A DNA stretch of 20,446 bases from positions 1-20,446 of IMG/VR virus record IMGVR_UViG_3300032093_001042. One strand, given 5' to 3'. Numbering within the stretch: position 1 is the first letter of the stretch; each line of letters opens with the position of its first letter. The translations under genes were made by a program, and so were the position numbers. Shown here piece by piece: positions 2,598 through 20,446 of the stretch. The notes beneath the pieces were generated by a model. The model was not told where the DNA came from and ran no database searches. It was given only the letters and a program-made list of their open reading frames with translations. The DNA comes from a virus.

Positions 2598-5393
2598 CTA
2601 ACCTTTTTTCTTTTTCTCTTGCTTTTTCTGATTTTGAGATTTTGCAAGGTTTTCTACATCGTATTTATTTTTGTTTTCCTGTGCTATTTGTAGGTCCATA
2701 TTCTTCATCTGCAATTGAGTATTTAATTTTTCTCTTTCCATCATTTGCATTTCTCTCTCGTTAGTCTGTCTATTGGTTTCTTTTTCTCTTTGTAAGCTCA
2801 TTGTGTCTTGAAACTCTTCACTGTTTCTAATACGTTCCATCTCATCTAAGTAATCACTCTGCATGTTTTTATTAATATCAACCATAGCACCCATACCTGC
2901 AGCACGTATCTCAGCTATTAGAATATCTTTTCTTCTATTCTTTTCATTCTCCATAGCTTGATGATCCATTTGTAATTTCCTGTCTTTTTCAGCAGCTTCT
3001 ATTCTCATTTGTTCTAACTGCTGTTGTTGTTGCTGTTCTTGTTGCTTTTGTTGCATAGCTTTTTTCTCCATGTCTTTCATTACATGGTCTATCTCAGCTA
3101 AAGACTTAGACTGCATGATGTTACCTAAATCATAAAGACTAGCACCAGTAGTATTATTGTTTACTGCTAATTGTTTAAGTTGTTCTACTAAAGATCTATA
3201 ATCAGCTTTTGTAGTACAATATACATTGATATCTGACAACAACAGTTGTGTACCGTTTATCTCAAAATTTACTTTCTCATCTAACGTAGTCATATACTGC
3301 AAACGTAATGATGGATTAGTAGAATGATAATATTGAGCAAGGTCTGTTCTCATCTGATGTACTCTAGGCATTAGGTAATCTGAGTGTTGTATAAAGTACA
3401 TTTCTGTCTGAGCATAAGAAGCTGAGATAGCCTGCTCTACTCCTGTAGCTGTTTGTGTTTGACCTATCTGCTGACCTAATCTTTGTGGAGTAATACCTAT
3501 TACCTCATAAGCTTGTTGTTTAAAATAATTAGCAAGCTGAATTCTAGACATTAACCTTTGTGTCTGCTCTAACGGAAGCACCTGAAAATGATTAAAGTTT
3601 ACACCATTTTCTGTATTCGTAAGAGATGTATCTACAGGAAGAATGCTAAAGTCTTTCATAGCTGTGTAGGCCTTAGCATAATTGTTCTTGCCCCAATCTT
3701 CTCCTAATGAGTGTTTAGGTAATACGTTCTGATCTAATAGAATAACTGTACCTAGTTCATCCACCAATATATCTGCAATTTGGTTATTAACCATGTTGTA
3801 GGATACTTGGAAAGGTTTCATCAAGTCTACTAAGGACATAGACTTAGTATTTCTATCAGAGAATATTGCACCTTCCACAGGCAACTTACAACCATACAAG
3901 GTTTTATCTCCTTTAAATTGAAACTTTAAAGGCCCTGGCTTATTTTGATTAATACCTATGTACATTGGATTTACCCCACCCGGATTACTCATACCTAACA
4001 TAGAAGGTCTATTAGGACCTATCTTTGTAACACCCCAAGTTTCGTTAATCCATATCCAGTCAATATGTTCACCAAATACTAGATTATCTCTAGTCTTGTT
4101 TTTAAATACTGCGGTGTTATATACAGGCTTGTCGTGAACAACATACTCTTCACTGACAATATCTATAATAACATTACCTACTTCGTCTATTTTTGTAAGG
4201 TGACCAACCTTTCTTTGTGATTTCCAATAAGATGTTGTAACACGTATTAGAGAAGCCATTGACCAATCAAAGGTACTTTCACTCTGACTAACTACAGCTT
4301 CTACTACATCAGGACCATATAATCCTCCCTCCCAAGTAGACATAAACTGTCTCCATTCTAATGAAGGCCTGTTAACATTCCAATCATGAGATTTGGTAGC
4401 ATCGTAAAAAGACCCATCATTCTGATAACCTGCAACTGGGTATATGGCAGACTTAACAGGATAGATAGCTTCTATAGCCTTTTGCTGCTCTTCGGTAAGA
4501 AGCCATCCATACTTATCAATAACATCAGAGATAGTCATCAAGTCTATCTTTCCTACCCAAGCACCATCAGAAACATATCTAACTTCTGGTGACTTATAGT
4601 AAAACACTAATGCAGGATTCCACAGCTCAACATCATAATCATCCTCTAACATCTTAAAATGCCAAAACTCTCTATCCGTAATAAGCATATCACGGAAACC
4701 TCTTTCTTCTAACTCATCTATTCTAAACCTTTCAGCATCTACTTTATATTGGTGAGATGCCCATTGTTCACCCATACTTCTATAATTCTTGCTAAAGAAT
4801 TTTTCTATTTCTGGTAAACCCTTAATCTTATCTTCTGATAATTCCTGTTGAACTTGCTCTTGCATTTCAGGATCCTCAGGATCAATACCTTGTTCTATTA
4901 ATTTCATCATCAGCTTTTGTTGTGCTCTTTGTATAAGAACACTTTCAACTTGCTGACGTTTCTCTTCTAACATAGTGTTATAAGATTCATCATCAACACT
5001 TTGGAAACTAACGGATGTGTTTCTTTTAGCAAATTCTGCACACATTACATTGATTACATTTGGTATAATCGGATAGAATTTGAGCTCTAATGCTGCTATA
5101 TTTTCTACCTGTAAGGTGTCTATAACTTCCCTATAATCATTATCTGAATCAGGAATATAGTCTGTTCTATCTATAATACCTTTAGCTAACTTATAGTTCT
5201 TAAGTATCTTTCTAGCATTTCTAGATATTTGACGAATACCATTCCATTCTAACCAATCAGCTACCCATGCCACCCACTTGTCATCCTTTTCTTTTCTAGG
5301 TAAAAACTGAATAGGTTGTGTTAATGTCGTATTGATTCCTCCAAGTTCTGCTTTGGCACCACCCTTTAGATCTAAGGCATTAAGAATTTTCAT
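2598..5393 (-). CDS. Portal protein (931 aa)
   Basis: The portal is the dodecameric ring at the capsid vertex through which DNA is packaged and ejected. The call is based on the position directly after terminase (2-base gap), the length, and a mixed alpha/beta body of about 740 residues followed by a long helical tail. Within the body, a stretch such as LFQ-free PFQVSYNMVNNQIADILVD and the segment around GITPQRLGQQIGQTQTATG (near residues 650-670) resemble portal stem and helical regions. From about residue 750 to the end the protein is rich in Q, E, K, R and M (runs such as KQQEQQQQQQLEQM), predicting a long coiled coil like the barrel extension of P22-type portals, and ends in KKQEKKKKG. 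At 931 aa it is longer than most portals but in keeping with crAss-like ones. The stop is TAG, with TAA two codons later. Confidence 0.8.
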   Translation of the reverse strand: MKILNALDLKGGAKAELGGINTTLTQPIQFLPRKEKDDKWVAWVADWLEWNGIRQISRNARKILKNYKLAKGIIDRTDYIPDSDNDYREVIDTLQVENIAALELKFYPIIPNVINVMCAEFAKRNTSVSFQSVDDESYNTMLEEKRQQVESVLIQRAQQKLMMKLIEQGIDPEDPEMQEQVQQELSEDKIKGLPEIEKFFSKNYRSMGEQWASHQYKVDAERFRIDELEERGFRDMLITDREFWHFKMLEDDYDVELWNPALVFYYKSPEVRYVSDGAWVGKIDLMTISDVIDKYGWLLTEEQQKAIEAIYPVKSAIYPVAGYQNDGSFYDATKSHDWNVNRPSLEWRQFMSTWEGGLYGPDVVEAVVSQSESTFDWSMASLIRVTTSYWKSQRKVGHLTKIDEVGNVIIDIVSEEYVVHDKPVYNTAVFKNKTRDNLVFGEHIDWIWINETWGVTKIGPNRPSMLGMSNPGGVNPMYIGINQNKPGPLKFQFKGDKTLYGCKLPVEGAIFSDRNTKSMSLVDLMKPFQVSYNMVNNQIADILVDELGTVILLDQNVLPKHSLGEDWGKNNYAKAYTAMKDFSILPVDTSLTNTENGVNFNHFQVLPLEQTQRLMSRIQLANYFKQQAYEVIGITPQRLGQQIGQTQTATGVEQAISASYAQTEMYFIQHSDYLMPRVHQMRTDLAQYYHSTNPSLRLQYMTTLDEKVNFEINGTQLLLSDINVYCTTKADYRSLVEQLKQLAVNNNTTGASLYDLGNIMQSKSLAEIDHVMKDMEKKAMQQKQQEQQQQQQLEQMRIEAAEKDRKLQMDHQAMENEKNRRKDILIAEIRAAGMGAMVDINKNMQSDYLDEMERIRNSEEFQDTMSLQREKETNRQTNEREMQMMEREKLNTQLQMKNMDLQIAQENKNKYDVENLAKSQNQKKQEKKKKG

Positions 5394-10088: not shown

Positions 10089-10440
10089 CGTGAATAACTT
10101 TATAGTTCAACAATATGTTACCTTTTGTTTTAATACCCAATTCAGGATTTAAAAACACTACTTTCTTCCAGTCACCCTTTTTACATATAAGGTTATATTC
10201 CTTAGCTTTCTTTAAGCTGTTTCTTACAGTCTGAGGTGTTTTAAAGATTTCATATTTTATAGTTAAATCAAAGAACTCTGCTTGATCAAATTCATCTTTT
10301 GTTCCTAACAAAGTCAAACATTCTAAATCTGAATCGGTAATAGATATCTCGTGCACATAACAATAAGTCATGAGTTGGAAACGGATTATTTCATAAATAT
10401 CCATTTCAATCTTCTTATCGACCAAATCAAAAGCAGCCAT
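10075..10440 (-). CDS. Winged-helix DNA-binding protein candidate (121 aa)
   Basis: The region FKTPQTVRNSLKKAKEYNLICKKG (about residues 70-93) reads like a recognition helix followed by a hairpin wing, and VVFLNPELGIKTKGNILLNY (about 98-115) completes a winged-helix-style domain. The N-terminal third is helical. I recall the pattern of R-N-x-L-x-x-A...G-L-I...K-K, then LNP, then G-N-I-L-L-x-Y-K, from uncharacterised Bacteroidota phage proteins. Roles could be late-gene regulation or DNA recognition for packaging (a small-terminase-like job). It precedes the HU-like gene, overlapping its TTG start, and follows the 104 aa gene by 8 bases. The stop is TAG. Confidence 0.68.
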   Translation of the reverse strand: MAAFDLVDKKIEMDIYEIIRFQLMTYCYVHEISITDSDLECLTLLGTKDEFDQAEFFDLTIKYEIFKTPQTVRNSLKKAKEYNLICKKGDWKKVVFLNPELGIKTKGNILLNYKVIHVEAR

Positions 10441-10448
10441 TGTAAAGA

Positions 10449-10763
10449 CTATTTAGAAGATTTAAGCTTTCTAAAGTTTTTAGAATGATCTTTCTTTGTT
10501 TCGGTTTTTTCTATTTCTTGTTCGGGTACACCAGGAATCTGATCACCTTGTTCCTGTTCATACATCATTTGTGTAAATGCTTGCTGAATACGTACTCTCT
10601 TAAAAGTAAGTTCATCAATATCAGCAAGTAGTCCTAGATACTTCTTTTTCTTCTCTAGAAATTCAGATTGTTTGTCATAGAAATCACCAAGTTCTTTTTG
10701 CTGTTGAGCAATCTCTTCTGGTGATAATTCTCTCTCTTCGTTTTGTTGGTTTAGGTTTTCCAT
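10449..10763 (-). CDS. Small coiled-coil protein (104 aa)
   Basis: The protein is acidic and strongly helical from about residue 14 to 72 (EEIAQQQKELGDFYDKQ, then EKKKKYLGLLADID), with a heptad-like pattern, followed by a disordered, Lys-rich C-terminal tail ending LKSSK. There is no known family. It is the first gene after the second candidate promoter element, so it probably opens a transcript covering the packaging genes. Small helical proteins with basic tails in this place can be small terminase subunits or minor head proteins; the sequence does not decide. Confidence 0.72.
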   Translation of the reverse strand: MENLNQQNEERELSPEEIAQQQKELGDFYDKQSEFLEKKKKYLGLLADIDELTFKRVRIQQAFTQMMYEQEQGDQIPGVPEQEIEKTETKKDHSKNFRKLKSSK

Positions 10764-10832
10764 AGTTTTAAACTTTTTACAAATGTAATATAAAAAGTTT
10801 AAACTTTTATAGTTTACTAAACTTTTTCGACA
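10764..10832 (-). promoter_or_regulatory. Candidate promoter/operator before the packaging genes
   Basis: On the minus strand TACATTTG (10780-10787) matches the Bacteroidota -7 box TAnnTTTG, 17 bases before the ATG. Upstream is a perfect 16-base palindrome AAAAGTTTAAACTTTT (10793-10808), and the element AAACTTTTATAGTTTAC (plus strand, 10801-10817) matches that at 2540-2556 at 16 of 17 bases. The ends of the two gaps next to the upstream gene are also alike (minus-strand ATGTCGAAAAAGTTTAGTAAA here, ATGTCAAAAACTTTGTAAA there). No coding frame longer than 8 codons is present. This is either a host-type promoter with an overlapping operator or a phage promoter. Confidence 0.5.
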
Positions 10833-12164
10833 TTACCTACTTACTTCTTCCCAGTCTATTGAGGCATACATTCCTAAAGTTCCTCCTATAGTATCTATAG
10901 CTGCTTCTACTATTAGTTCAAAAGCTACACCGGTTAGACCGTCTCTTTCTAGCTGATTAGCAAACAGTGCTTCCTTTAGTATGTTTATACTAGGTGAGGC
11001 TTGATTAGAAGAATTTATATAACCTAGAGCAAGCACTCTACCACCTGTTGCAGATGTTCCTGTAAGATTATACTCTACTGCAGAATCGGGTCCTACAGGT
11101 ACCCATGCTCCACCAGTTATAGTACCACCTTGTACTACTCTCCAAGCATAGTTCTTACCGTTACCTAATCCTAATATAGATATAGCGGTTGCTATTACTA
11201 TAGCATCTAGCTTTGTTGCTGTAAGTTTTAGTCCTACCATAGGATAAAAAGTACCTGCTGCAGCAAAGCTTGTTGGTGTAGTAATAGGAGTACCAACAGC
11301 TTGTTGTGCTCCTCTTAGTTCATAACCACCCTCAGATATTACAGTAGAACATACTTGTTTTAAAGTACTTGGTGCCGCGGTGTTTCCTTCATTAGTAATC
11401 TCATATCTTAGTGGTAGAGAAGCTGTGGTTATATAGGTAGTACTAATAATATTAGCATGGTTAAACCTGTGACATAGTACAAATATTCCATCTATTACAA
11501 AGCCTACCCTTACAGTTCCCTCACCTAACCACTCAATATCAGTAAACATGATCTGAGCCTTGGTTATATCTAGAGTAATACCCGAAGGTCCTGTACCATC
11601 TAGCTTATCTACATTCCATAAGTTCTGAGGTACTATTGTTTCAGTAACAAGGCCTGTGACTAAGCTTCTTTCTACAAAACTTACAGTACTATCTTTTAAC
11701 TGTATATAGATACCATTATCTACACCAAAATAACCTACTCTTTGTCTGAGGTTAGTCTGTGCCGGTGCCATCACAAAAGTATTGAATACTAGTAATGACT
11801 TACCTGGTTGGTAAGAGAATACTTTATAAGTTTCTCTTATTACTTCTGAACCTGTTGCTGCTGTTACATTAAGGTTTACTAGTCCTTGATCAGGACTAAA
11901 AACTGCGGTGCCACCACTAGCAGTAGCTGTAGCCCATAGTCCATTATCTTTATATCTATGTGAAGAATCAAAAAGAGTTAATGGTTCTGATACTCTTAAT
12001 CTACCAAAGGCATCGTTAGCCATAGGTCCTACAACTTCACTGCCTATAGTAGTAGTTAAAGTATCAATACTAGTATTAATAAGGTCTAAACCTTTTAACA
12101 TCCGGTATTGCCAAGGGTAATTATAACCCTTGCTACCATTATCTTTTAGATTACCTATTGACAT
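10833..12164 (-). CDS. Virion structural protein of the DAFGRLRVS family with shared N-terminal tag (443 aa)
   Basis: Residues 1-26 (MSIGNLKDNGSKGYNYPWQY and onward) are nearly the same as the start of the 246 aa protein. From about residue 49 the sequence DAFGRLRVSEPLTLFDSSHR leads into a large beta-rich domain that continues with KSLLVFNTFVM, NLRQRVGYFGVDNGIY, DIEWLGEGTVRVGFVIDG and STVISEGGYELRG (to about 290). I recognise this block from a widespread virion protein of marine and freshwater phages, often annotated only as structural. The last 150 residues are a second beta-rich region. There are no enzyme motifs. The short N-terminal segment is probably an attachment or docking peptide, and the rest an exposed decoration, neck or fibre-associated protein. 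Confidence 0.75.
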   Translation of the reverse strand: MSIGNLKDNGSKGYNYPWQYRMLKGLDLINTSIDTLTTTIGSEVVGPMANDAFGRLRVSEPLTLFDSSHRYKDNGLWATATASGGTAVFSPDQGLVNLNVTAATGSEVIRETYKVFSYQPGKSLLVFNTFVMAPAQTNLRQRVGYFGVDNGIYIQLKDSTVSFVERSLVTGLVTETIVPQNLWNVDKLDGTGPSGITLDITKAQIMFTDIEWLGEGTVRVGFVIDGIFVLCHRFNHANIISTTYITTASLPLRYEITNEGNTAAPSTLKQVCSTVISEGGYELRGAQQAVGTPITTPTSFAAAGTFYPMVGLKLTATKLDAIVIATAISILGLGNGKNYAWRVVQGGTITGGAWVPVGPDSAVEYNLTGTSATGGRVLALGYINSSNQASPSINILKEALFANQLERDGLTGVAFELIVEAAIDTIGGTLGMYASIDWEEVSR

Positions 12165-12168
12165 AATT

Positions 12169-12900
12169 TTATATGCTAAATTTTCTTACAGCTATAACAT
12201 TTAGCACATTTGATTTATTAACTGCATCAAAACGGTCACCGTTAAACCTGTATGAAAAAGCGGTAGTAAGTGTTCCAGAAGGTTGTGAATATTCAGTACT
12301 TGTCCAATATGATCCTTGATCTTTTATAAGATTACTACCTAAAGCTTCTATAACTCTAGATATATCATATATATTATTCCATATATAATAAGCCTCGCCT
12401 ATAGATGGTAGATACCAATCATTTTTACCACCATCCGTACTGCTTAAACAAAGTCTTGCAGCACTAGTAGTATGACCAACCTGAGATACTATAGCATTAC
12501 TATTTTTTAATCCATCCCACTTACTCTGTGCTGTAACACCTATATTTGGAATCCCTGTTACATTACTATAAACTTCAGCAACTAGACCAATAGGACTTAG
12601 TACTAAATAGTTTTGAACAGGACCCTTTTGTGGAGTTTGTAGAGGTGCTGTAGACAACCATCTATGAAATATTATACCACCTTCTTCAGGAACATATTGA
12701 CCAATCTCATATTTAAAACCTGAGATAAGTTCTGATAAAGACATTGCTGCAGGTGGGTACACATTAGCATTACCAGAACGTCTTTTCTGATTACCTTTTT
12801 GATAAATACCTACTTGTACGTATGTATTGTCAGGATCTACTTGATTTAATCTAGCTACTTTATTCTGTGATATAAGTGCTTGTATTTTAAATTCGTCCAT
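12169..12900 (-). CDS. Surface protein with C-terminal DUF1566/C-type-lectin-like domain (243 aa)
   Basis: The C-terminal half contains the pattern of Lcl/DUF1566-type C-type-lectin-fold domains: NDWYLPSIGEAYYIWNN (about residues 160-176), GSYWTSTEYS (about 196-205), then FSYRFNGD and the final IAVRKFSI. These domains bind ligands and are common at the tips of phage fibres. The N-terminal 60 residues are a different module with QVGIYQKGN and PPAAMSLSELI. The gene follows a gap with a TG-CA-TTTG element and ends 4 bases before the 443 aa gene, so it sits with other virion-surface genes. A receptor-binding or head-decoration role is inferred. Confidence 0.7.
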   Translation of the reverse strand: MDEFKIQALISQNKVARLNQVDPDNTYVQVGIYQKGNQKRRSGNANVYPPAAMSLSELISGFKYEIGQYVPEEGGIIFHRWLSTAPLQTPQKGPVQNYLVLSPIGLVAEVYSNVTGIPNIGVTAQSKWDGLKNSNAIVSQVGHTTSAARLCLSSTDGGKNDWYLPSIGEAYYIWNNIYDISRVIEALGSNLIKDQGSYWTSTEYSQPSGTLTTAFSYRFNGDRFDAVNKSNVLNVIAVRKFSI

Positions 12901-12939
12901 ATTATATATTTTAAAATTTTTACTAAATTAATTAAATTT

Positions 12940-12947
12940 CAAATGCA
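12940..12947 (-). promoter_or_regulatory. Weak TAnnTTTG-like box upstream of the lectin-like gene
   Basis: TGCATTTG on the minus strand is one base off the Bacteroidota -7 box and lies 40 bases before the ATG at 12900, similar to the spacing (38) before the scaffold candidate. The rest of the gap is extremely AT-rich. There is no matching palindrome, so this is weak. Confidence 0.25.
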
Positions 12948-12956
12948 TTTATTATA

Positions 12957-13037
12957 CTATACCACAAAATCACCAGAAACCAAATTATCAGTAGTAATAT
13001 ACTTTACATGGTATATTATATTCGGATTAAAAGACAT
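12957..13037 (-). CDS. Possible 26-aa peptide or leader
   Basis: An ATG at 13035-13037 shares one base with the stop of the 174 aa gene (TAATG) and opens a 26-codon frame (MSFNPNIIYHVKYITTDNLV, then six residues) ending in TAG. It occupies most of an otherwise empty 136-base gap. The coupled start resembles real junctions in this block. It has no known motif and is short enough to be chance; it could also be the remnant of a larger gene. If TAG were read through, only six more codons would follow before TGA. Confidence 0.35.
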   Translation of the reverse strand: MSFNPNIIYHVKYITTDNLVSGDFVV

Positions 13038-13561
13038 TAATTAATTATTTTTTTTACCAAAACTGGTATCTCTGATTTCTTTACTATCTGACCCTTCATA
13101 TATGGATCTGGAGGAATATAATGATACAATAATTTTTTTGTATATAAATCTCTAAGTGTGCCTTCAAATTCTTCTTCCGTTGGCTTTCTTGCAAGCTTTA
13201 ATTCCATAGCTTCAAAGGCTGCCTCAGGAGATATCCAAGACAATTCCTCTTTTACAATTTTTTCTAGACTATATAATGCTATTAAATAGGCAGCTTCGGC
13301 AGCTTTATCTTTTTTTTTATCTTCTTCTTTTACAAGGCTATCTACCTCAATCTTTTGTGTAAGCTGTTTATTAAGCTCTTTTAAGTTATTATTTTCCTTT
13401 GTTAATTTGGTATTCTCATTAGTTAGAGAATCATTAGCTACTTCTAAATGTTCTTTTTCTTCTACAACTACTACATGATTTTCCCCGGCTTTAAATGTAG
13501 TGGCTAATACTAAACCCATAATTGAAGCTAGTACCGCTAAAATTGTAAAACTTTTTTTCAT
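13037..13561 (-). CDS. Membrane-anchored coiled-coil protein, inner-spanin-like candidate (174 aa)
   Basis: There is one N-terminal hydrophobic segment (residues 5-22, FTILAVLASIMGLVLATT) after a KK charge, so it is either a signal anchor or a cleavable signal peptide. A heptad-rich coiled coil follows (about 32-75, NDSLTNENTKLTKENNNLKE). The C-terminal half is helical and basic. An N-terminal anchor plus a periplasmic coiled coil is the architecture of inner-membrane spanins, which bridge to an outer-membrane lipoprotein to disrupt the envelope; the 79 aa lipoprotein nearby is a possible partner. It is the last gene of the lysis group, 2 bases after the 91 aa gene. A structural role is the alternative. 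Confidence 0.65.
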   Translation of the reverse strand: MKKSFTILAVLASIMGLVLATTFKAGENHVVVVEEKEHLEVANDSLTNENTKLTKENNNLKELNKQLTQKIEVDSLVKEEDKKKDKAAEAAYLIALYSLEKIVKEELSWISPEAAFEAMELKLARKPTEEEFEGTLRDLYTKKLLYHYIPPDPYMKGQIVKKSEIPVLVKKIIN

Positions 13562-13563
13562 GG

Positions 13564-13839
13564 TTACTTTCTTATAGAAGTAATAATCATATCTCTTATG
13601 TCATGGAGAGCCTTAGTGTTATTATCAATAGTATCTTTTAAAATTTTTTGATCATTACGTATATAGTCGTTAAGTTCTTTTTGTAATGCTGTAACATCTG
13701 CTTTTAATCTATCCTCAGATGCTAACTGTCTTTTTAATAAATACCATAATGCACCACCAAGTGCTAAGGTTACTACCCCAAGTGCTCCATATTGAGTAAG
13801 TGTGTCAAACACCCCAAAAGATGCAGATAGTGTTGTCAT
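13564..13839 (-). CDS. Membrane protein with coiled coil, paralogue of next gene upstream (91 aa)
   Basis: Residues 16-35 (QYGALGVVTLALGGALWYLL) are a transmembrane segment, followed by a charged coiled coil (about 38-85, SEDRLKADVTALQKELND). The layout and the pattern QYGALG-V---ALG--W...L...DRL...V..L...L are shared with the neighbouring 68 aa protein, so the two are tandem duplicates. One transmembrane helix with a cytoplasmic coiled coil resembles BhlA-type holin-like proteins. Its position in the endolysin cluster suggests a part in membrane permeabilisation or its timing. Confidence 0.72.
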   Translation of the reverse strand: MTTLSASFGVFDTLTQYGALGVVTLALGGALWYLLKRQLASEDRLKADVTALQKELNDYIRNDQKILKDTIDNNTKALHDIRDMIITSIRK

Positions 13840-13842
13840 AGA

Positions 13843-14049
13843 TTATTTTTTTAAACTTTGTTCTAATAACATTTTTTCTAACTCCTCCACTCTCTTTTGT
13901 AGCCTATCTTTTTCTTCAAGGTTTTTATTCCACATCTTCCAAGCTACAAAGCCTAAAGCTATAACCACAATACCTAAAGCTCCGTACTGTACAAGACCTT
14001 CGTAGGCTCCTAAACCAGGATTAGTATGTCCAACATTAGTAGTGTCCAT
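13843..14049 (-). CDS. Small BhlA-like membrane/coiled-coil protein (68 aa)
   Basis: A short N-terminal lead is followed by a transmembrane helix (about residues 19-38, LVQYGALGIVVIALGFVAWK) and a charged coiled coil (42-66, LEEKDRLQKRVEELEKMLLE). It is a paralogue of the 91 aa protein downstream, 3 bases away. Its ATG shares a base with the stop of the two-helix holin candidate (TAATG), so these are translationally coupled. The size and topology fit small holin or holin-regulator proteins. Having two copies suggests a holin/antiholin pair or subfunctionalised subunits, which is inference. Confidence 0.72.
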   Translation of the reverse strand: MDTTNVGHTNPGLGAYEGLVQYGALGIVVIALGFVAWKMWNKNLEEKDRLQKRVEELEKMLLEQSLKK

Positions 14050-14333
14050 TATACAATAGGTTCTTCGGGTTTAACACTAGATTCTTCTTTCTCAGACTTA
14101 TTAGGTTTATTAGCTATCCACTTATCTAAGGAAGTACCAAAGAAAGCACCTAAGACTATGAACATTATACCATCAAACACAAATTCGTGGATAGGCATAT
14201 TTTTACCCATGAAGCCGGTGATAATATCGCAAGTAAGTGTTATTACTATTAACCCAAAGGCACACAAGCCAATAAAGGTTTTTTCACTAAGTGTGTTTTC
14301 ATCACATAGCAAATCTTTGAAAAACTGTTTCAT
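14049..14333 (-). CDS. Two-transmembrane holin candidate (94 aa)
   Basis: Two hydrophobic segments are visible: about residues 20-42 (FIGLCAFGLIVITLTCDIIT) and 52-67 (VFDGIMFIVLGAFFGT), followed by a hydrophilic charged tail (KPNKSEKEESSVKPEEPIV). Short two-helix proteins next to an endolysin are commonly holins, which form the lesions that release or activate the lysin. The gene lies two bases after the lipoprotein gene and overlaps the next start by one base. No family motif is recognised, so holin is a context call. Confidence 0.65.
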   Translation of the reverse strand: MKQFFKDLLCDENTLSEKTFIGLCAFGLIVITLTCDIITGFMGKNMPIHEFVFDGIMFIVLGAFFGTSLDKWIANKPNKSEKEESSVKPEEPIV

Positions 14334-14335
14334 AC

Positions 14336-14575
14336 TTATTTAGTTATGTATTTATATACAATAACGTCACCAACTCGAGTGTTGGTTGTACAAGGTACGG
14401 TGTCGTTGTTCGATAACAAAGCTAAAAATTTTGGTGATATATAATCATGAATACTAATATTTTTTTTCTGCCAGGTTTTAACAACAGAATAACTCTGTAC
14501 TTTAACCTTGTATCTACAACAAGATGTTAAAAACAACAGGCAAAATAAAAGTGTTTTACTTAGTAAGCCAACCAT
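14336..14575 (-). CDS. Small lipoprotein, possible outer-membrane spanin (79 aa)
   Basis: The N-terminus is a lipoprotein signal peptide: a short basic part (K7), a hydrophobic core LLFCLLFL and a lipobox L16-T17-S18-C19, followed by a second cysteine. The mature chain of about 60 residues is basic with several Tyr and Lys. In lysis cassettes of Gram-negative phages such a small lipoprotein is often the outer-membrane spanin. Its start overlaps the endolysin end by 20 bases, showing coupling. It lacks the proline-rich stretch of Rz1-type o-spanins, so the function is uncertain, but membrane lipidation is well supported. Confidence 0.68.
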   Translation of the reverse strand: MVGLLSKTLLFCLLFLTSCCRYKVKVQSYSVVKTWQKKNISIHDYISPKFLALLSNNDTVPCTTNTRVGDVIVYKYITK

Positions 14576-15170
14576 AAAACCTATTAGTTAAAGATTTTCT
14601 ATCTTCTAGACCATGTGTACCACCATTTATTCTTTTAGTCATAGCTAGGATTGTAGCATCAGATACACCACCGTCAGCTATTAACCATAACTTATTATTG
14701 TCAAAAAAGAACATAGCAGATTCAAATGCATAATCAGAAGCTACTAAATCAGGATTAGTCATAATCTCAGGCTTCTTTAAATAATTTGCAAATGCTTGAT
14801 AATTAGACTTTCCTGTAAGCTGAAGGGCACCTCTGCCGCGGAATTTCCAGCCATCTCCAGAAGCCTCATTACCATTACCCATACGGTTGGCATATACTCT
14901 ATTAGCTATTTTGATAGGTTGCCTAGCATAGCTATCTTCTAACTTATCTGGAAAGTATTTACCAAAAATCTTATCCAACCCTGCAGCAGAGTAATTAAGG
15001 TTTTCTGAAAAGATTTGGAAACCTCCACTCTCATGTGAAGTCTGTCCAAAAAAGTGTGCTGCCCTAGAAGGTGTTAGCTTATAATAAGCTGCAGCAGCTT
15101 TTAGTGTTCCAGGTCCAAATGCTCCGTCAGCTTTGGTACCTATTTTTTCTTGTAGTTTTATTAGACTCAT
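14556..15170 (-). CDS. GH19 endolysin (peptidoglycan-degrading chitinase-like lysozyme, 204 aa)
   Basis: This family hydrolyses the glycan backbone of peptidoglycan at the end of infection. The GH19 signatures are visible: HFFGQTSHESGGF (residues 39-51) with catalytic E47, SENLNYSAAGL (55-65) with E56 as the probable second acid, and the substrate-cleft block RGRGALQLTGKSNY (111-124). A final RINGGTHGLEDR (180-191) is also typical. The N-terminal KADGAFGPGTLKAAAAYY (13-30) looks like the end of a peptidoglycan-binding helix. There is no signal peptide, so release depends on the holin genes just downstream. The gene is preceded by an A/T-rich leader (AATAAAAATAAT before ATG), and is followed by overlap with the lipoprotein gene. 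Confidence 0.92.
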   Translation of the reverse strand: MSLIKLQEKIGTKADGAFGPGTLKAAAAYYKLTPSRAAHFFGQTSHESGGFQIFSENLNYSAAGLDKIFGKYFPDKLEDSYARQPIKIANRVYANRMGNGNEASGDGWKFRGRGALQLTGKSNYQAFANYLKKPEIMTNPDLVASDYAFESAMFFFDNNKLWLIADGGVSDATILAMTKRINGGTHGLEDRKSLTNRFYGWLTK

Positions 15171-15181
15171 ATTATTTTTAT

Positions 15182-15409
15182 TTATTCAGTTGGTGGAAAT
15201 GGTGGTGGTATAGGTGCAACCCATTCAATAAGTGGTAAATCTTTTACCCACAAAAAGTCAGGGTTAATACAGTTATCCATTTCTTGTGTTGATATAACCC
15301 AATTAGGAGGTGTATTACCGTCCTCTACTGGATTGAAGTACCAATCGGGTGCTAATGTTTGCCCTACTAATTGGTCTTTTTCTTCTATTGTTAATTGTCC
15401 TACTTGCAT
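15182..15409 (-). CDS. Small fibre-associated hypothetical protein (75 aa)
   Basis: The protein is acidic, ending in a proline-rich tail (PIPPPFPPTE). The core shows EEKDQLVGQ, then PDWYFNPVEDG, NWVISTQEMDNC and PDFLWVKDLPLIEWVAP. I recall similar YFNP...D...NWVIS...E...W.K.LPLIEY patterns in small proteins encoded next to fibre genes in Bacteroidota phages. It lies 3 bases after the 907 aa fibre gene and 11 bases before the endolysin. It may be a fibre chaperone or tip-associated protein. The function is unknown. Confidence 0.75.
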   Translation of the reverse strand: MQVGQLTIEEKDQLVGQTLAPDWYFNPVEDGNTPPNWVISTQEMDNCINPDFLWVKDLPLIEWVAPIPPPFPPTE

Positions 15410-15412
15410 ATT

Positions 15413-18136
15413 TTAAACTTGTCTATTTAATGTAGTTTGAAATGCTTGAACTCTATTGTAAAAATTTAATGTTTGAACTGCATCTAAAGAATCACCTATT
15501 GAAGCAAATGCACATTCTTTATTGTCATAATAAACAATTGAAGCACCACTTCTTGAGGCAGAAATCAAAAGTGTTTGTGTAATTTGACTTGTAGTTCCAT
15601 TTGTTGATGTTCCGTTGGCTATATTAGAACCATTTTTATAAAATGCAGAAGATGTCGCATTTATCCTTGATGATTGATAAAATCCCCTTGAATCAGTTTC
15701 AGCCGTTGCTATGGCTGTTCCATTTGTACCACCATAAATAGAACTTCTACCATTACTTGATTGCCTTATTGTAAATCTACAATAGTTTGGACTTCCACCA
15801 CCACTATCACTACCTATTGAAGAAGAAAATCCAGCAGTTGCAGAATTTGTTCTTGAATAAAAAGATAAGTGCTTATTATCGGTAGCTACAAAGGCAGTTG
15901 ATGGTGCTAAAAAGGTATCGGCATAAGCATTAGAGCCATTTGGTAATGCACCATTTTGGCTAAATGTCCATCCTCCAACAAATGATAAATTATAAGTACC
16001 TACTGTCTTTAAGTTAACAGCACATGAACTTGCCGAAGAACCAACCATAGGGTATATAGCTTTCATTGATGTCCATAAGCCATCAGCCTTTAATCCTATA
16101 ACTAAATTATTTACAGCAGTAGCTTCAACTTGGTCAACTATGTTTGCTGAATTTATAAATGCTTGGGCATCAGGGTCACTTACTATTGGAGGTGTAGGAA
16201 GAATTGCTCTACCTAAAGTGGTTTGTAAATTTTGTACAGCAGTATAAAAATTAGATGCTTCTGTGTCTGTCAATCCATCTCCTATTGAAGCAAATGCACT
16301 TTGTTTGGTACTATAATATTGTGGCGTACCATTATTATTTGATGCACCAATAAAAAATGGAACGGTTGAAGTTGCACTTGATGGAGCAGTTCCGTTAATT
16401 ATGTTTACACCATTTTTAAATGTTTTTATAACATTGGATGCTGTTCTTGTGCCTACATAAAATCCTTGAGTATTTGATGTTGCAACAGAATTAAGAGTAA
16501 CTGTATTGTTAAATCTAAAAAAAATTGTATTTGCACTTGATAAAGCTAAATCAGAATAACTATCAGGACTTGGTTTTAAAGTTCCTATATCAGCTGCTGA
16601 ACCAGCCGAAAGAAAATTAGTCCTACTATAATAAGATAAGTGACCACTATTTAAACCTATTGCTGATGTACTTAAAAAAGTATTTGCGTAAGCATTAGTT
16701 CCATTTGGAGTAGCACCATTTGTACTGTAATTCCAACCTCCTACCCAACTTAATCTAAAAGCATTATTGGTGTCTTGCGGATTAACCAAATTATATTTCA
16801 TTTGGTTAGCCATATCTACTTGTAATGTTTTATCTGTTATCATAGGATATATGGCTTTCATCTTAGTCCATATATTATAAGATTTTAATTGACCAATAAA
16901 AGTACCAATGGCTACTTGTGTTGATGTATTAGTTATTTGGGTAGCAAATAAATAAGCATTTGTTTCATTACCATAATTTCTATTATAGTAGAAAGACTGT
17001 GTGGGATTTATATTTCTACTTAATGCTACTTGATATTTCTCAACTATTTGATAAAAAAGCTGTGATTCTAAATCTGTAAGACCACTTCCAATACTTGCAA
17101 AAGAATATTGTCTTTGTGAATAATTACCTGATGCTGGACTACCATTTACATTTAAGTTAGCTATAAAAATTGTATTTGTTATTGTGCTTGTATTTGGTGT
17201 AGAAACATTAGTATTTGTAGTTCCAAATTGAGTTCCATTTTTAAATACTTTAAACAAATTAGTAGTTGTTCTTGTTCCAATGTAAAAACCTTCTGAATTA
17301 GCATTACCAATAGTAATTCTGTTTGTATTAAAGTTGTATTGGTCTGAATATAAATTTCCATCACTCCACCTTAAATTTATGGACAAATATCCATTACCTC
17401 CAGTACCAGTTACTACACCTATGTCACCTACACCTGATGCACTATTTGTTCTTGAATATATAGAAATATGAGTATTACCATTTGATAATGTAGAAGATGG
17501 CGATAGAAAAGTATCCGCATAACCATTTGTACCATTACCAGCCATTCCGTTGGAACTAAAAGTTATACTACCTATACCACTCGGATAGCTTAATCTAAAT
17601 GCTCCATTACTATCAACTGGATTCTTTAAATTAAACTTCATCTGATTTGCTATATCCACTTGTGTTACCTTGTCAGTAATCATAGGATATAAAGCATTAA
17701 ACTTAGTCCATATATTAGCACCCTTTAAATCTAATACAAATTCATTAAGTGCAACTGTTTGTGTTGTTGCTGTTAGTGTAGTGGCTGTATTATAAGCATA
17801 AGCATCTGCATCATAAACATATAAGGAGTTACTTGTAGCACTTGCAGTACCCGAAGGATTAGTAGCATATACTTCACAAGTAATAGTACATCCTGCATCT
17901 ACAAATATTAAATTATAAGTTGTTGCACCAGGAGTAGGAAAAGGTACCACAGGAACACCATTTCTTTTCCACCAATAAGTAAAGGTTGGACTAGGAGATC
18001 CTGTCCATGTACCATTTGTAGTTGTTAATACATTACCTACCACATTAGTTCCTGATATCACAGGAGCAGACGTATTTACAGGTGCCGATGCTGGCCCCGA
18101 AAATGTTCCTGCTCCTAATAATAACAGTGTTCCCAT
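15413..18136 (-). CDS. Large fibre/adhesin protein with Ig-like domain and three repeated modules (907 aa)
   Basis: Residues about 18-107 form an Ig-like domain of the invasin or BIg style (P-V-I-S-G-T...G-T-W-T-G-S-P-S-P-T...C-E-V-Y-A-T-N-P-S-G-T). Then come three copies of one long module, about 111-376, 392-645 and 655-907. Landmarks recur: IWTKFNALYPM / IWTKMKAIYPM / LWTSMKAIYPM (142, 422, 687); ISIYSRTNS / LSYYSRTNF / LSFYSRTNS (224, 500, 757); GFYIGTRT / GFYVGTRT / GFYQSSRI (283, 558, 818); and FASIGSGLTD / FASIGDGLTD / FASIGDSLDA near each end. The modules are beta-rich and likely lectin- or concanavalin-like. They end in a helix, FYTAVQNLQTTLGR. No enzyme residues are apparent. The protein is likely the receptor-binding fibre or head adhesin. 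Confidence 0.85.
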   Translation of the reverse strand: MGTLLLLGAGTFSGPASAPVNTSAPVISGTNVVGNVLTTTNGTWTGSPSPTFTYWWKRNGVPVVPFPTPGATTYNLIFVDAGCTITCEVYATNPSGTASATSNSLYVYDADAYAYNTATTLTATTQTVALNEFVLDLKGANIWTKFNALYPMITDKVTQVDIANQMKFNLKNPVDSNGAFRLSYPSGIGSITFSSNGMAGNGTNGYADTFLSPSSTLSNGNTHISIYSRTNSASGVGDIGVVTGTGGNGYLSINLRWSDGNLYSDQYNFNTNRITIGNANSEGFYIGTRTTTNLFKVFKNGTQFGTTNTNVSTPNTSTITNTIFIANLNVNGSPASGNYSQRQYSFASIGSGLTDLESQLFYQIVEKYQVALSRNINPTQSFYYNRNYGNETNAYLFATQITNTSTQVAIGTFIGQLKSYNIWTKMKAIYPMITDKTLQVDMANQMKYNLVNPQDTNNAFRLSWVGGWNYSTNGATPNGTNAYANTFLSTSAIGLNSGHLSYYSRTNFLSAGSAADIGTLKPSPDSYSDLALSSANTIFFRFNNTVTLNSVATSNTQGFYVGTRTASNVIKTFKNGVNIINGTAPSSATSTVPFFIGASNNNGTPQYYSTKQSAFASIGDGLTDTEASNFYTAVQNLQTTLGRAILPTPPIVSDPDAQAFINSANIVDQVEATAVNNLVIGLKADGLWTSMKAIYPMVGSSASSCAVNLKTVGTYNLSFVGGWTFSQNGALPNGSNAYADTFLAPSTAFVATDNKHLSFYSRTNSATAGFSSSIGSDSGGGSPNYCRFTIRQSSNGRSSIYGGTNGTAIATAETDSRGFYQSSRINATSSAFYKNGSNIANGTSTNGTTSQITQTLLISASRSGASIVYYDNKECAFASIGDSLDAVQTLNFYNRVQAFQTTLNRQV

Positions 18137-18139
18137 TCT

Positions 18140-18880
18140 TTATAAATAAAATCCAGATGCTGATACGTATACACTAGATCCTGTAGTAAGACACACAGCT
18201 TCTAAATCATCACCTGCAGGAACAAGCAATGGTGTAGGAAATGATAAGCTAAACCCACCACCGGCAGGAGCTGCATATCCTTGATACAAAATACCTGCTC
18301 CAGTAGAATAAGTTATACGAACAACAGTACCCACAGTAGCATGACTATTAGTTACCAATATCTGTGTAACATACATGTCTGTCGCAGGACCTGGACTAGG
18401 TATCACAGGTGTTAACGTAAGATCTATTATCGGACCTACTGCTCCTGTAATCAAATTAGGAGGCAACGGATAAGTAGCAACCAAACCATCAACAGTAATA
18501 GTATTGCCCCCATCCTGTATGTTCACAGCATTACCCCCACCACCATTCAGTACTGTAGTACCTGACGGTGCTGTAATAGGTGTAAGATTCCCAGGTGCAG
18601 GAGCAGGAGTAATAGTAGTCTGGGTAGTTTGATTAAACCAAACAGTAGCCGTCACCGTAGAAGTAGCTACATCTATAATATCATATCTTACTATAATATT
18701 CCCTGCAACATACCCTGTCCCAGAACCTGTCGCCTCATAAGTAGTAGTCCTAGTCTCATAGTCTACACCAGGCAAAGCATTTATACTAGCATTAATTGCT
18801 GATAATAACTGCAACGTCTTTAACTGATAAGGATAATTGTTACCCTTATTGCCATTATCCTTTAAGTTACCTATACTCAT
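18140..18880 (-). CDS. Surface/structural protein with shared N-terminal tag (246 aa)
   Basis: It starts MSIGNLKDNGNKGNNYPYQL, almost identical to the first residues of the 443 aa protein, and DNA similarity between the two starts is visible as well. After the tag (to about residue 40) comes a low-complexity, Thr/Ala/Pro/Gly-rich part with PAPAPGNLTPITAPSG, then beta-rich segments and a terminal VYVSASGFYL. There are no membrane, enzyme or cysteine motifs. It precedes the 907 aa fibre gene by 3 bases, so a virion decoration or fibre role is likely, with the shared tag as the docking site. Nothing more can be assigned. Confidence 0.72.
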   Translation of the reverse strand: MSIGNLKDNGNKGNNYPYQLKTLQLLSAINASINALPGVDYETRTTTYEATGSGTGYVAGNIIVRYDIIDVATSTVTATVWFNQTTQTTITPAPAPGNLTPITAPSGTTVLNGGGGNAVNIQDGGNTITVDGLVATYPLPPNLITGAVGPIIDLTLTPVIPSPGPATDMYVTQILVTNSHATVGTVVRITYSTGAGILYQGYAAPAGGGFSLSFPTPLLVPAGDDLEAVCLTTGSSVYVSASGFYL

Positions 18881-18883
18881 ATA

Positions 18884-19027
18884 TCATTTATACGTTTGTG
18901 AATATTTTGTATCAAATAGCAAAGCTACAGTCATATCACCCTCCCAATAATAATTTTTATCTGCTGTATCAGTACTATAGTTATAATCTAAAAAACTTAG
19001 AGGATAACTATAATTGATTACTAGCAC
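18884..19027 (-). CDS. Possible small protein, GTG start (47 aa)
   Basis: The frame starts at GTG (19025-19027), preceded by A-rich sequence, and ends with TGA three bases before the next ATG (18880). The peptide reads MLVINYSYPLSFLDYNYSTD, then a Tyr-rich portion, and ends LFDTKYSQTYK (first codon read as Met). It fills most of the 165-base space between two genes and ends close to the downstream start. It is in the same frame as the gene upstream, separated by tandem TAA TAA stops and six codons, so it may instead be the detached end of a longer ancestral gene. There is no known family. Confidence 0.5.
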   Translation of the reverse strand: MLVINYSYPLSFLDYNYSTDTADKNYYWEGDMTVALLFDTKYSQTYK

Positions 19028-19045
19028 TCTTATTATTTTTAATTA

Positions 19046-19516
19046 TTATTTGTTGTAAACCCTAATCTCAAAGATGCTATTACTATTAAGCACATTACTT
19101 AATACCGTATCTTTGGGCAAAGGAAAATCTAAAACACCACCTGTGTCACCTGACTGAGTGGTAAGAATCTTAACCGAATTAGCTGTATCAAAACTAGCAG
19201 TAGAAGTCCATACATTTGTTGAACCATTATAAACAATCTCCGGTGTGATATGAACACTATACAACAACCCATCTACAGTATAGTTCTTATCGGTAAACAA
19301 AGCCTTCGACAAACTAACAGTATACTCACCAATACCTGCATAACTATAGGTAACCTCCAAACCCAAACTGTTCTCCAACTCTTGTAACACAACAGGAGCC
19401 GACGTAACAGTCTGACTCAATATAACCTTATAACTCTTATACCCCTGCAAGTATACCCTCGCAACAGATATAGTCTGGCCCAATAACTGCCATAAATGTG
19501 TAAACCTGTTTCTCAT
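19046..19516 (-). CDS. Unknown protein, first gene of the minus-strand block (156 aa)
   Basis: I chose the ATG at 19514-19516 because it follows an A-rich tract (TTAAAAAAAAAGAGT) of the kind seen before other starts here; an upstream ATG at 19556-19558 would add 14 Lys/Asn-rich residues (MVFSKSNNKLKKKS). The protein has a basic N-terminus, MRNRFTHLWQLLGQTISVAR, followed by beta-rich sequence with TVTSAPVVLQEL and GGVLDFPLPK. The middle, with VTYSYAGIGEYTVSL, looks like a beta-sandwich virion protein. There is no motif of an enzyme or membrane protein. Being first in the block beside fibre genes, it may be a minor structural protein. Codons are rich in G and T on the coding strand, more so than in the packaging genes. 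Confidence 0.7.
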   Translation of the reverse strand: MRNRFTHLWQLLGQTISVARVYLQGYKSYKVILSQTVTSAPVVLQELENSLGLEVTYSYAGIGEYTVSLSKALFTDKNYTVDGLLYSVHITPEIVYNGSTNVWTSTASFDTANSVKILTTQSGDTGGVLDFPLPKDTVLSNVLNSNSIFEIRVYNK

Positions 19517-19764
19517 ACTCTTTTTTTTTAATTTGTTATTACTTTTACTGAACACCAAAAATAATAATTCCTACAACATATCCTACATCACCCTCACAAT
19601 TTATTTTACCCCCCAAAAACACAATACCTACACGAAAGCAAGAGTATTCATAAAATACCATACCTATACTCAAACAAGGGTACCACCCACACAGCCCCCC
19701 CACCAAGTTGGGAAAGGGGGTACCCCCGGGTGTTCCTAGGTTGTTGATGGGACAAGGTACGATG
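19517..19764. promoter_or_regulatory. Divergent transcription switch region without genes
   Basis: This is the space between the minus-strand block and the plus-strand units. The bases 19551-19633 contain no G on the plus strand (28 C, 0 G in 83 bases), so a minus-strand leader transcript would be C-free and unstructured. I see no clean TAnnTTTG box upstream of the 156 aa gene. From 19676 to 19735 it becomes GC-rich with overlapping palindromes (see next entry). A late promoter, an origin or a genome end could all be here; the sequence does not decide. Confidence 0.4.
19695..19730. repeat. GC-rich palindromic patch
   Basis: In an otherwise AT-rich region, a run of seven C (19695-19701) is followed by CCAAGTTGG (19703-19711), then the perfect 12-base palindrome GGGGGTACCCCC (19716-19727), then GGG. 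The C-run could pair with the G-run to form a stem-loop (C5 with 19716-19720), or the palindrome could fold on its own. A further GGGTACC lies just upstream at about 19678. No T-run on either side makes it an ordinary terminator. Confidence 0.55.
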
Positions 19765-19780
19765 CCAACCTTTTTTATGT
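19765..19780 (+). promoter_or_regulatory. Conserved CCAACCTTTTTTA element, copy 1
   Basis: First copy of the repeated element CCAACCTTTYTTA. It continues with TGT, and an ATG lies 31 bases after the element begins (19796), the same distance as for copies 2 and 3. The element opens the unit that ends at the terminator at 19888-19917. Confidence 0.65.
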
Positions 19781-19887
19781 AATAGGGTAATGGTTATGAC
19801 CTTTCTAAGAAAGATTAGAAGAACATGCTAACTGTCTACTAATCCGAGACTCAGGATTGGAATAGGCAAAGCCAGAGTCGTACTGCA
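19781..19887 (+). ncRNA. Candidate small RNA (or micropeptide transcript) of the first plus-strand unit
   Basis: Between element copy 1 and the first terminator there is no credible gene; the only frame at the expected distance is an 11-residue peptide (ATG 19796, TAA 19829-19831). The transcript has short hairpins: CTTTC-TAA-GAAAG (19801-19813), AATCC-loop-GGATT (19841-19858) and GGC-AAA-GCC. It does not fold as a tRNA: no acceptor or T-arm match was found on either strand. The size of about 110-150 bases and the closing terminator suit a small regulatory RNA. Function is unknown, and a translated micropeptide remains possible. Confidence 0.4.
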
Positions 19888-19917
19888 AACAGGGCCTTCG
19901 GTCCTGTTCTTTTTTTT
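19888..19917 (+). terminator. Intrinsic terminator of the first plus-strand unit
   Basis: The stem is AACAGGGCC paired with GGTCCTGTT (9 bp with one G-U pair), with the small TTC loop, followed by C and eight T (19910-19917). This is strong and in the plus orientation. Confidence 0.88.
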
Positions 19918-19946
19918 AAGTGGTATGTCGGCATTAAAGCACTTTC

Positions 19947-19962
19947 CCAACCTTTCTTAGTG
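19947..19962 (+). promoter_or_regulatory. Conserved CCAACCTTTCTTA element, copy 2
   Basis: The second copy of the repeated element begins 30 bases before the ATG of the 61 aa gene and 30 bases after the T-tract of the preceding terminator. The base at the Y position is C. Downstream GGGGAAATAAACTCT leads to the ATG. Confidence 0.65.
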
Positions 19963-19976
19963 GGGAAATAAACTCT

Positions 19977-20162
19977 ATGGACACAAAAGAACTAATTGCT
20001 AAGGCAAGAGACATTATGGAAAGCTTTGACCAATCGGCAGCTATGACCATTGGATATGATAAGCCATCATACACCTTAACAGCCGAACAAATGCTAATCA
20101 TTGCAGCAGCACTTTACCATGCTGATTGCGAGATACAAGAGGAAGATGACCTACCATTCTAG
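19977..20162 (+). CDS. Small unknown protein of a monocistronic unit (61 aa)
   Basis: The protein is small, acidic and helical: MDTKELIAKARDIMESFDQS, a middle part with YTLTAEQMLIIAAALY, and an acidic end EIQEEDDLPF. It has no known family and no cysteine cluster or membrane span. The start is set by the element 30 bases upstream, and TAG is followed at once by a terminator, so the gene stands alone. Small acidic proteins expressed from separate early-type units in phages are often host-takeover or inhibitor proteins; that is inference from setting only. Confidence 0.78.
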   Translation: MDTKELIAKARDIMESFDQSAAMTIGYDKPSYTLTAEQMLIIAAALYHADCEIQEEDDLPF

Positions 20163-20165
20163 ATT

Positions 20166-20189
20166 AGGGGCTTTGCCCCTTTTCTTTTT
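20166..20189 (+). terminator. Intrinsic terminator after the 61 aa gene
   Basis: A 6-bp perfect stem, AGGGGC paired with GCCCCT, has a TTT loop and is followed by TTTCTTTTT. It begins four bases after the stop codon. Confidence 0.85.
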
Positions 20190-20202
20190 ACCGTGTCCTT
20201 TT

Positions 20203-20220
20203 CCAACCTTTTTTATTGTG
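20203..20220 (+). promoter_or_regulatory. Conserved CCAACCTTTTTTA element, copy 3
   Basis: The third copy lies only 13 bases after the T-tract of the preceding terminator and starts 31 bases before the ATG of the 51 aa gene. The short space leaves no room for a full upstream -33 region, which suggests that the element itself is the promoter core. Confidence 0.65.
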
Positions 20221-20233
20221 AAAATATATACCT

Positions 20234-20389
20234 ATGAAAACCTTCAATCAATTCATTGCTGAGCATCCTGAACTACAAGAAATGGATGCCATGGACCAAC
20301 AATTCTTCTATGATAGCTACTTAGAAGATTACCGTTTTGGTTTAGACAGATTATCGGAAGACCCTGATCCATATGGGGATAACGATTAA
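20234..20389 (+). CDS. Small acidic unknown protein of a monocistronic unit (51 aa)
   Basis: The frame runs from the ATG at 20234 to TAA at 20387-20389. The protein, MKTFNQFIAEHPELQEMDAM and then QQFFYDSYLEDYRFGL, ends in an Asp/Glu/Pro-rich tail (SEDPDPYGDND). It is strongly acidic, with no membrane part and no known motif. It is bracketed by element copy 3 and a terminator, the same unit layout as the 61 aa gene. Acidic small phage proteins sometimes mimic DNA or inhibit host enzymes, but nothing here proves that. Confidence 0.78.
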   Translation: MKTFNQFIAEHPELQEMDAMDQQFFYDSYLEDYRFGLDRLSEDPDPYGDND

Positions 20390-20401
20390 CTCTACACATA
20401 G

Positions 20402-20431
20402 GGAGCACCTTCGGGTGCTTCTTTGTTTTTT
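20402..20431 (+). terminator. Intrinsic terminator after the 51 aa gene
   Basis: The stem GGAGCACC pairs with GGTGCTTC (8 bp with one G-U) around a TTCG tetraloop closed by C-G, followed by TTTGTTTTTT. This is a textbook plus-strand terminator. Confidence 0.88.
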
Positions 20432-20437
20432 AAATGT

Positions 20438-20446
20438 CCAACCTTT
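20438..20446 (+). promoter_or_regulatory. Conserved CCAACCTTT element, copy 4, cut by window end
   Basis: The last nine bases are CCAACCTTT, identical to the start of copies 1-3 and located 6 bases after the T-tract of the third terminator. A fourth unit very probably continues past the window end. Confidence 0.6.

Follow-up and report, generated by a model that had tools for sequence, protein, structure and literature searches.

Repeated single-block elements as probable immediate-early promoters in an uncultured phage of crAss type

An N4-like virion RNA polymerase (RNAP) is injected and uses several early promoters, and the N4 promoters contain a small, conserved hairpin. Housekeeping promoters of the Bacteroidota contain a -7 box, TAnnTTTG. 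In published accounts, the virion of crAss-like phages contains a giant RNAP (PMC8375218; PMC10136315). Expression of the early genes of crAss001 is reported for 0-10 min after infection (PMC8375218), and the early genes, or early operon, of phi14:2, a crAss-like phage of Cellulophaga, are reportedly transcribed by the virion polymerase (PMC8375218; PMC10136315). For phage P23-45, the account in PMC10770324 has a short conserved motif before the pre-early genes, which is assigned to the virion polymerase and for which transcription starts were mapped by sequencing; by the same account, relatives of P23-45 that have the polymerase also have a similar motif, and the motif is missing in those that lack it. 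No promoter for a crAss-like virion RNAP was found among the literature matches listed, although the phi14:2 RNAP paper (Drobysheva 2021) could describe one; the word "promoter" does not occur in the main text of the review PMC10136315.

The DNA analyzed here ("the window"), 20,446 nt long, is part of the genome of an uncultured virus. Its TerL matches phrog_6681 (terminase, E 1.3e-58) and its portal protein matches phrog_6547 (portal, E 2.7e-97), crAss-type matches that place the phage, as judged by these two proteins, in Crassvirales or a sister lineage. Among the best 30 of 143 TerL matches, identity to crAss-like and Flavobacterium phages is 23-25%, and none of the 143 is a relative at 60% identity or more. 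The minus strand carries the large structural genes. Divergent from them, on the plus strand from 19765, lies an array of small early units, so the early module diverges from the late structural module as it does in a phi14:2-type virion-RNAP system. A second record, IMGVR_UViG_3300005528_000448 (L004/L214; G001), represents the same phage (99.98% identity over 11,073 nt) and extends 2.8 kb past the window end; window coordinates equal L004 coordinates plus 10233. Searches with three proteins of this phage, the early one of 51 aa, another of 147 aa and the first late one (161 aa used), gave matches in the same phage only.

The array is marked by a 13-mer, CCAACCTTTYTTA, which occurs exactly three times in the window, always on the plus strand. 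Copy 1 (CCAACCTTTTTTA, 19765-19777) lies inside the conserved block of the nine-copy alignment, and copies 2 (CCAACCTTTCTTA, 19947-19959) and 3 (CCAACCTTTTTTA, 20203-20215) are likewise exact matches. A fourth copy (20438-20446, plus strand) is cut by the window end; in L004 it reads CCAACCTTTTCTA and agrees with the 13-mer in 12 of 13 letters. An earlier note on this DNA had placed three full copies and a cut fourth at these same positions, and had made its case depend on there being more outside its region; copies 4 to 9 were found beyond the window, in the overlapping contig. All nine copies fall within 3.1 kb of that contig, on the plus strand. For the 9-mer core, CCAACCTTT, this amounts to 9 plus-strand copies versus 0.14 expected, together with a single minus-strand occurrence (17981). 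At up to two mismatches to the 13-mer, the window contains 7 matches versus 2.23 expected, a number reached by none of 100 shuffles; one of the 7, at 19806, is on the minus strand. A stray one-mismatch copy, CCAACCTTTCTTT, is present at 4204, antisense within the portal gene. Exact minus-strand copies are absent from the window, as the earlier note had said.

When the nine copies are aligned, 11 of the 13 positions never vary and one further position is T in 8 of 9. No other conserved block is present between -45 and +60, where single columns above 1 bit occur at -12, +14, +19, +20, +25 and +34. The earlier argument that no long upstream promoter part would fit before copies 3 and 4 was loose, as such an element and a terminator could share the same DNA, but a conserved upstream block is indeed absent. 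The 13-mer is not self-complementary and no conserved hairpin block flanks it in the nine copies; it does not have the conserved hairpin of an N4-type promoter. As a family-wide motif the exact 13-mer was rejected: among 173 loci, only the three window pieces and two loci of the window's own phage carry it more than once. Scanning all viral contigs for the pattern returned 89 stretches; among the 80 listed, only the window phage had two matches.

The copies are regularly placed with respect to genes and terminators. In units 1, 2 and 3 a start codon lies at +31, +30 and +31, in agreement with the 30 or 31 bases first noticed, and in the eight coding units the start codon follows the beginning of the element by 30, 31, 39, 31, 30, 32, 47 and 68 nt, i.e. 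30-32 nt in five of eight, with copies 4, 8 and 9 at 39, 47 and 68 nt. The first three units each end, as had been claimed, in a terminator hairpin, all on the plus strand: 19888-19908 (L004 9655-9675), followed by CTTTTTTTT; 20166-20180 (L004 9933-9947); and 20400-20423 (L004 10167-10190). The gaps from T-tract to next copy had been given as 6 to 47 nt; they are in fact 29, 13 and 6 nt. Seven of the eight later copies begin no more than 75 nt after the hairpin of an intrinsic terminator; for the ninth copy, the preceding terminator is about 220 nt away. Unit 2 encodes a 61-aa early protein (19977-20162, plus strand) that matches nothing in PHROG or Pfam at E 0.1, and unit 3 a 51-aa early protein (20234-20389, plus strand) with weak matches only (PHROG, E 0.019; Pfam, E 0.058, below cut-off). 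The description of the locus as tiny promoter-gene-terminator units is accurate except for unit 1, which is without an ordinary gene, and one bicistronic unit beyond the window. The latter, at L004 10593, contains two genes, the second of which (10795-10992) has no element of its own. Thus, the element marks transcription units rather than genes. Farther along L004, the neighboring early genes at 11991-12395 and 12721-13059 are paralogues with 59% identity, the second being cut by the contig end; the L213 early module encodes a distant homologue of the pair (40% over 45 aa).

Unit 1 (19778-19917, plus strand) is predicted from an ORF scan and RNA folding to yield a transcript without an ordinary gene, possibly a small RNA or a leader, with an intrinsic terminator at its end. 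It contains no plus-strand ORF of at least 40 aa and, in L004, none of at least 30 aa that starts with ATG. An 11-codon ORF, MTFLRKIRRTC (19796-19831, plus strand), can be read in the sequence; its ATG has the canonical +31 spacing, and a second ATG, at 19790, is in frame with it. The fold of unit 1 has a z of -2.16 over 143 nt (6 of 200 shuffles as good) and of -2.55 over 138 nt (3 of 200), both values including the terminator hairpin. No Rfam family matches the window, unit 1 included, at the gathering score; the candidates sbrA and DLEU2_5 scored below that threshold and were rejected. A unit of this kind is also found in the relative G010 (L201:5309-5392, minus strand), in which the element is present, no ATG occurs up to +75, and the fold has a z of -5.46 (0 of 200 shuffles). 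In another relative, G018, the stretch after the third element folds with a z of -2.76 (2 of 200 shuffles). The G018 early module also contains a Hatchet ribozyme at L191:2735-2901 (plus strand; Rfam RF02678, 81.2 bits, E 8.6e-16).

Related phages were collected by a TerL search; 80 of its 576 matching stretches were retained, and 20 of these records were extended. Five of the extended records reach the divergent junction, and every one has a repeated word in its early units. These five relatives have TerL proteins 59-61% identical to that of the window phage and the same junction, with shorter arrays and other words: TTCATCCCA four times in G010, TTTTCTCTTTAYTA three times in G005, CTAGCCCTT three times in G018, CTAGCC four times in G015 and GTATYATATCTCAT three times in G011. 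Each set is on the early strand, and the words do not occur elsewhere in their own contigs on either strand. GTATYATATCTCAT is absent from G012, a 95.6-kb record of the same phage as G011 (99.9%). In the pooled set of 26 elements from six phages (the window phage and the five relatives), a terminator-like hairpin is present within the 75 nt before 16 of 20 non-first elements, versus 47 of 1800 random positions; the four without one are single elements of G001 and G005 and two of G010. G015 and G018 have a common word despite early proteins that are 31-37% identical in their matched parts (TerL, 78.1%). G010 and G005 have different words although their TerL proteins are 93.3% identical, a point we count against our preferred explanation. 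Arrays are present at 6 of 11 junctions examined; a comparable array was not found at those of L213, phi14:2, crAss001, cr130_1 and FpV21. Two other recurrent words were seen. The 17-mer CATTCTTTTTGTCAGGG is common to G010 (L201:5898-5914, minus strand) and G005 (L208, near 5576), just before the first early unit; extended by one base, it is found in these two only among viral contigs. TTTGTATATTATA recurs in relatives, several times before structural genes (e.g. L213 2611-2623 and L190 7930-7942), and is, by this position, a possible late promoter word; it is not enriched in the window itself.

The strength of the statistical case differs among the phages. When 16 records are scanned de novo for 14-mers that recur three or more times within 1.3 kb, at no more than one mismatch, the early element is recovered in four of the six array phages (G001, G010, G005 and G011). 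The scan finds no family in the window alone and three in the overlapping contig. In G005 the early element is the sole family; other families are present in G010 (4), G011 (3), G009 (2), G006 (1), G017 (1) and G020 (3), and G018 has 68 in all. When exact 9-mers located after terminators are considered, four words are obtained for the window phage, all of which overlap the element. CTAGCCCTT of G018 is one of ten such words in its contig, and the words of G010, G005, G015 and G011 fail, some at the G+C or copy filter. Most records contain between one and nine confined 9-mer triples per contig, and G018 contains 49. Because the terminator test singles out the window phage only, and because such triples are common, the case for each relative taken alone is modest, and that for the window phage is very strong. 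Simple repeat counts, for which the opposite strand is void as a control since the repeat is symmetric, give a top word of 3 copies in G005 (shuffles 2-4), of 4 in G018 (shuffles 3-4) and of 4 in G015 (shuffles 3-4); in G010 the top words represent a leader word before start codons and not the element. Counted by upstream region, TTCATCCCA of G010 is present in three (1 of 10 shuffles reached 3), TCTCTTTACTA of G005 in three (shuffles up to 2) and CTAGCCCTT of G018 in two (shuffles up to 2). Words of phi14:2 and cr130_1 slightly exceed shuffles (5 versus 3 and 4 versus 3), and none of them forms a unit-wise array. A core common to all six words, sought by ungapped block alignment, is not supported: 45, 37 and 57 of 300 shuffles did as well at widths 7, 8 and 9, respectively.

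The host-type -7 box, TAnnTTTG, lies ahead of the first late gene of the window phage, of G010 and of G005, but is absent between -40 and +75 at all 19 early elements tested (those of the window phage, G010, G018 and G005, and not the 7 in G015 and G011), so that the early elements do not resemble Bacteroidota sigma promoters. In the window the candidate box, TATTTTTG, lies on the minus strand at 19556-19563, 39 nt before the late-gene ATG at 19516; in G018 no such box was found close to the start of the first late gene. G006, G009, G012 and G023 each encode a homologue of the phi14:2 RNAP; in alignments of more than 2,300 columns, identity to the G006 protein is 28.8-31.1%. G006 and G023 have the catalytic loop DFDID, and G009 has DFDFD. 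Since G009 and G010 represent one and the same phage (99.8%), the array and an intact-looking polymerase occur together in one phage. The G012 homologue (L175, minus-strand ORF 10433-19999) matches a profile of four at E 1.7e-259, and its DxDxD loop is replaced by unrelated sequence between conserved flanks, which we also count against the preferred explanation.

A promoter role for the 13-mer is well supported. As the earlier note proposed, it has the features of a single-block early promoter: it occurs once per unit, after terminators, with a constant, short spacing to most start codons, on the early strand only, and without the host -7 box. In the reading we favor, with a probability of roughly 0.6, it is an immediate-early core promoter most probably read by a virion RNAP that enters with the DNA, and the late operon uses a host-type promoter. 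Early expression, the RNAP homologues, the absence of the host box and the lack of matches to two sigma-domain families in the records searched together make a phage polymerase the likeliest reader, although none of these shows it; the window fragment stops short of the RNAP gene. Further points against this reading are the missing common core of the six words, the junctions of phi14:2 and others that have no comparable array, the repeat counts of G005, G018 and G015 that do not clearly exceed shuffles, and the G018 late gene with no host-type box nearby. Each unit would consist of a promoter, a leader mostly no longer than about 20-30 nt, one gene (once two, once an RNA-like product) and an intrinsic terminator, and the transcription start would fall accordingly between element and start codon as far as the spacing indicates. 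With a promoter and a terminator to each unit, nearly every tiny early product would come from its own transcript. The promoter itself would be one short block, with neither a host -7 box nor a second conserved block, its reader most probably a crAss-type virion RNAP entering with the DNA, and the divergent late operon would be served by a host-type TAnnTTTG promoter.

The element could instead be a promoter or activator site for host RNAP, directed there by an alternative sigma factor, a phage-encoded one or an activator, which we regard as unlikely but not far-fetched. AACCTTT resembles the -35 motif of AAC type that ECF sigma factors recognize, and cr130_1, a distant crAss-like phage, matches two sigma-domain families and encodes a sigma factor. 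However, neither of those families (PF04542 and PF08281) has a match in 11 window-family records, several of which are fragments, or in phi14:2. An ECF-sigma promoter would have its -35 element about 30 nt before the start site, and with 30-32 nt between element and ATG most coding units would then have their transcription start on the ATG or beyond it; the element is also without a second conserved block. It is distinctly improbable that the element acts in RNA, as a boxA-like antitermination or processing signal within array-long transcripts. Its location just after terminators and the word TTCTCTTTA of G005, which resembles boxA, would fit such a signal, but the words of other lineages are unlike boxA by eye, and one element per unit, after and not before the terminator, is what a promoter requires. 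In addition, the array offers no other promoter-like site: sigma-70-like sites number 8 versus 10.8 expected from shuffles, with no excess, and TAnnTTTG is absent near the tested elements.

The constant distance to the ATG in five of eight coding units could also reflect a translation or leader signal set by its spacing from the start codon. We give this very little weight, since copies 4, 8 and 9 lie farther from their genes, unit 1 and the G010 unit carry the element without an ordinary gene, and the second gene of the bicistronic unit does without one. Chance repetition in T-rich intergenic DNA deserves hardly any credence as a general explanation. It gains from the three-copy relatives, in which a confined 9-mer triple alone is not rare and simple repeat counts (G005, G018 and G015) go little or not at all beyond shuffles, but for the window phage it is refuted by the excess of core copies together with their placement after terminators.

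A palindrome, GGGGTACCCC, lies at the late/early junction (19717-19726) and occurs once in the window (0.0037 expected). It is present exactly once each in the window, G010 (L201 5961) and G018 (L191, about 950), at the junction. Palindromes of the GGGG-n-CCCC type are also found at the junctions of L213 (GGGGTTCCCCC, 9236) and phi14:2 (GGGGAGTATCCCC, 98031), each being the sole GGGG-(1 to 5)-CCCC match in the DNA examined, and G015 carries GGGTACCCCC at its junction. The exact word was not found in G005, nor was the palindrome found in the examined pieces of G015, G011, crAss001, cr130_1 and FpV21. It is possibly an origin, a packaging site or an operator. A more far-reaching proposal, which we put forward tentatively and with some doubt, is that the elements are the first recognized promoters of crAss-type virion RNAPs; that in most lineages a separate word in the same layout (CCAACCTTTYTTA, TTCATCCCAYTATTTA, TTTTTCTCTTTAYTA, CTAGCCYTT and GTATYATATCTCAT) indicates a polymerase and promoter that co-evolve quickly; and that the palindrome next to unit 1 (GGGGTACCCC, or a similar one, in five of the phages) marks the start of transcription or of genome entry.

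Nine near-identical, single-block promoter candidates within 3 kb, together with the sets from relatives, provide templates for testing the question of virion RNAP promoters. Compared with described systems, the window phage would resemble N4 in having an injected polymerase and several early promoters, but no hairpin is conserved around the 13-mer. With phi14:2, whose virion RNAP is gp66, it shares the divergent late/early junction and small early genes, and the polymerase of phi14:2 is homologous to that in relatives of the window phage; in phi14:2, however, a strong repeated element was not found, and there is only a weak, post hoc enrichment of ANCCTTA (6 versus 0.83, with one of these six lying within a gene). 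P23-45, as described, offers the closest parallel. The P23-45 motif is AT-rich and its starts are mapped, whereas the window phage has a CCAACC block and its kin have lineage-specific words; what the two would have in common is a virion-carried, two-barrel polymerase and a short conserved motif before the pre-early genes.
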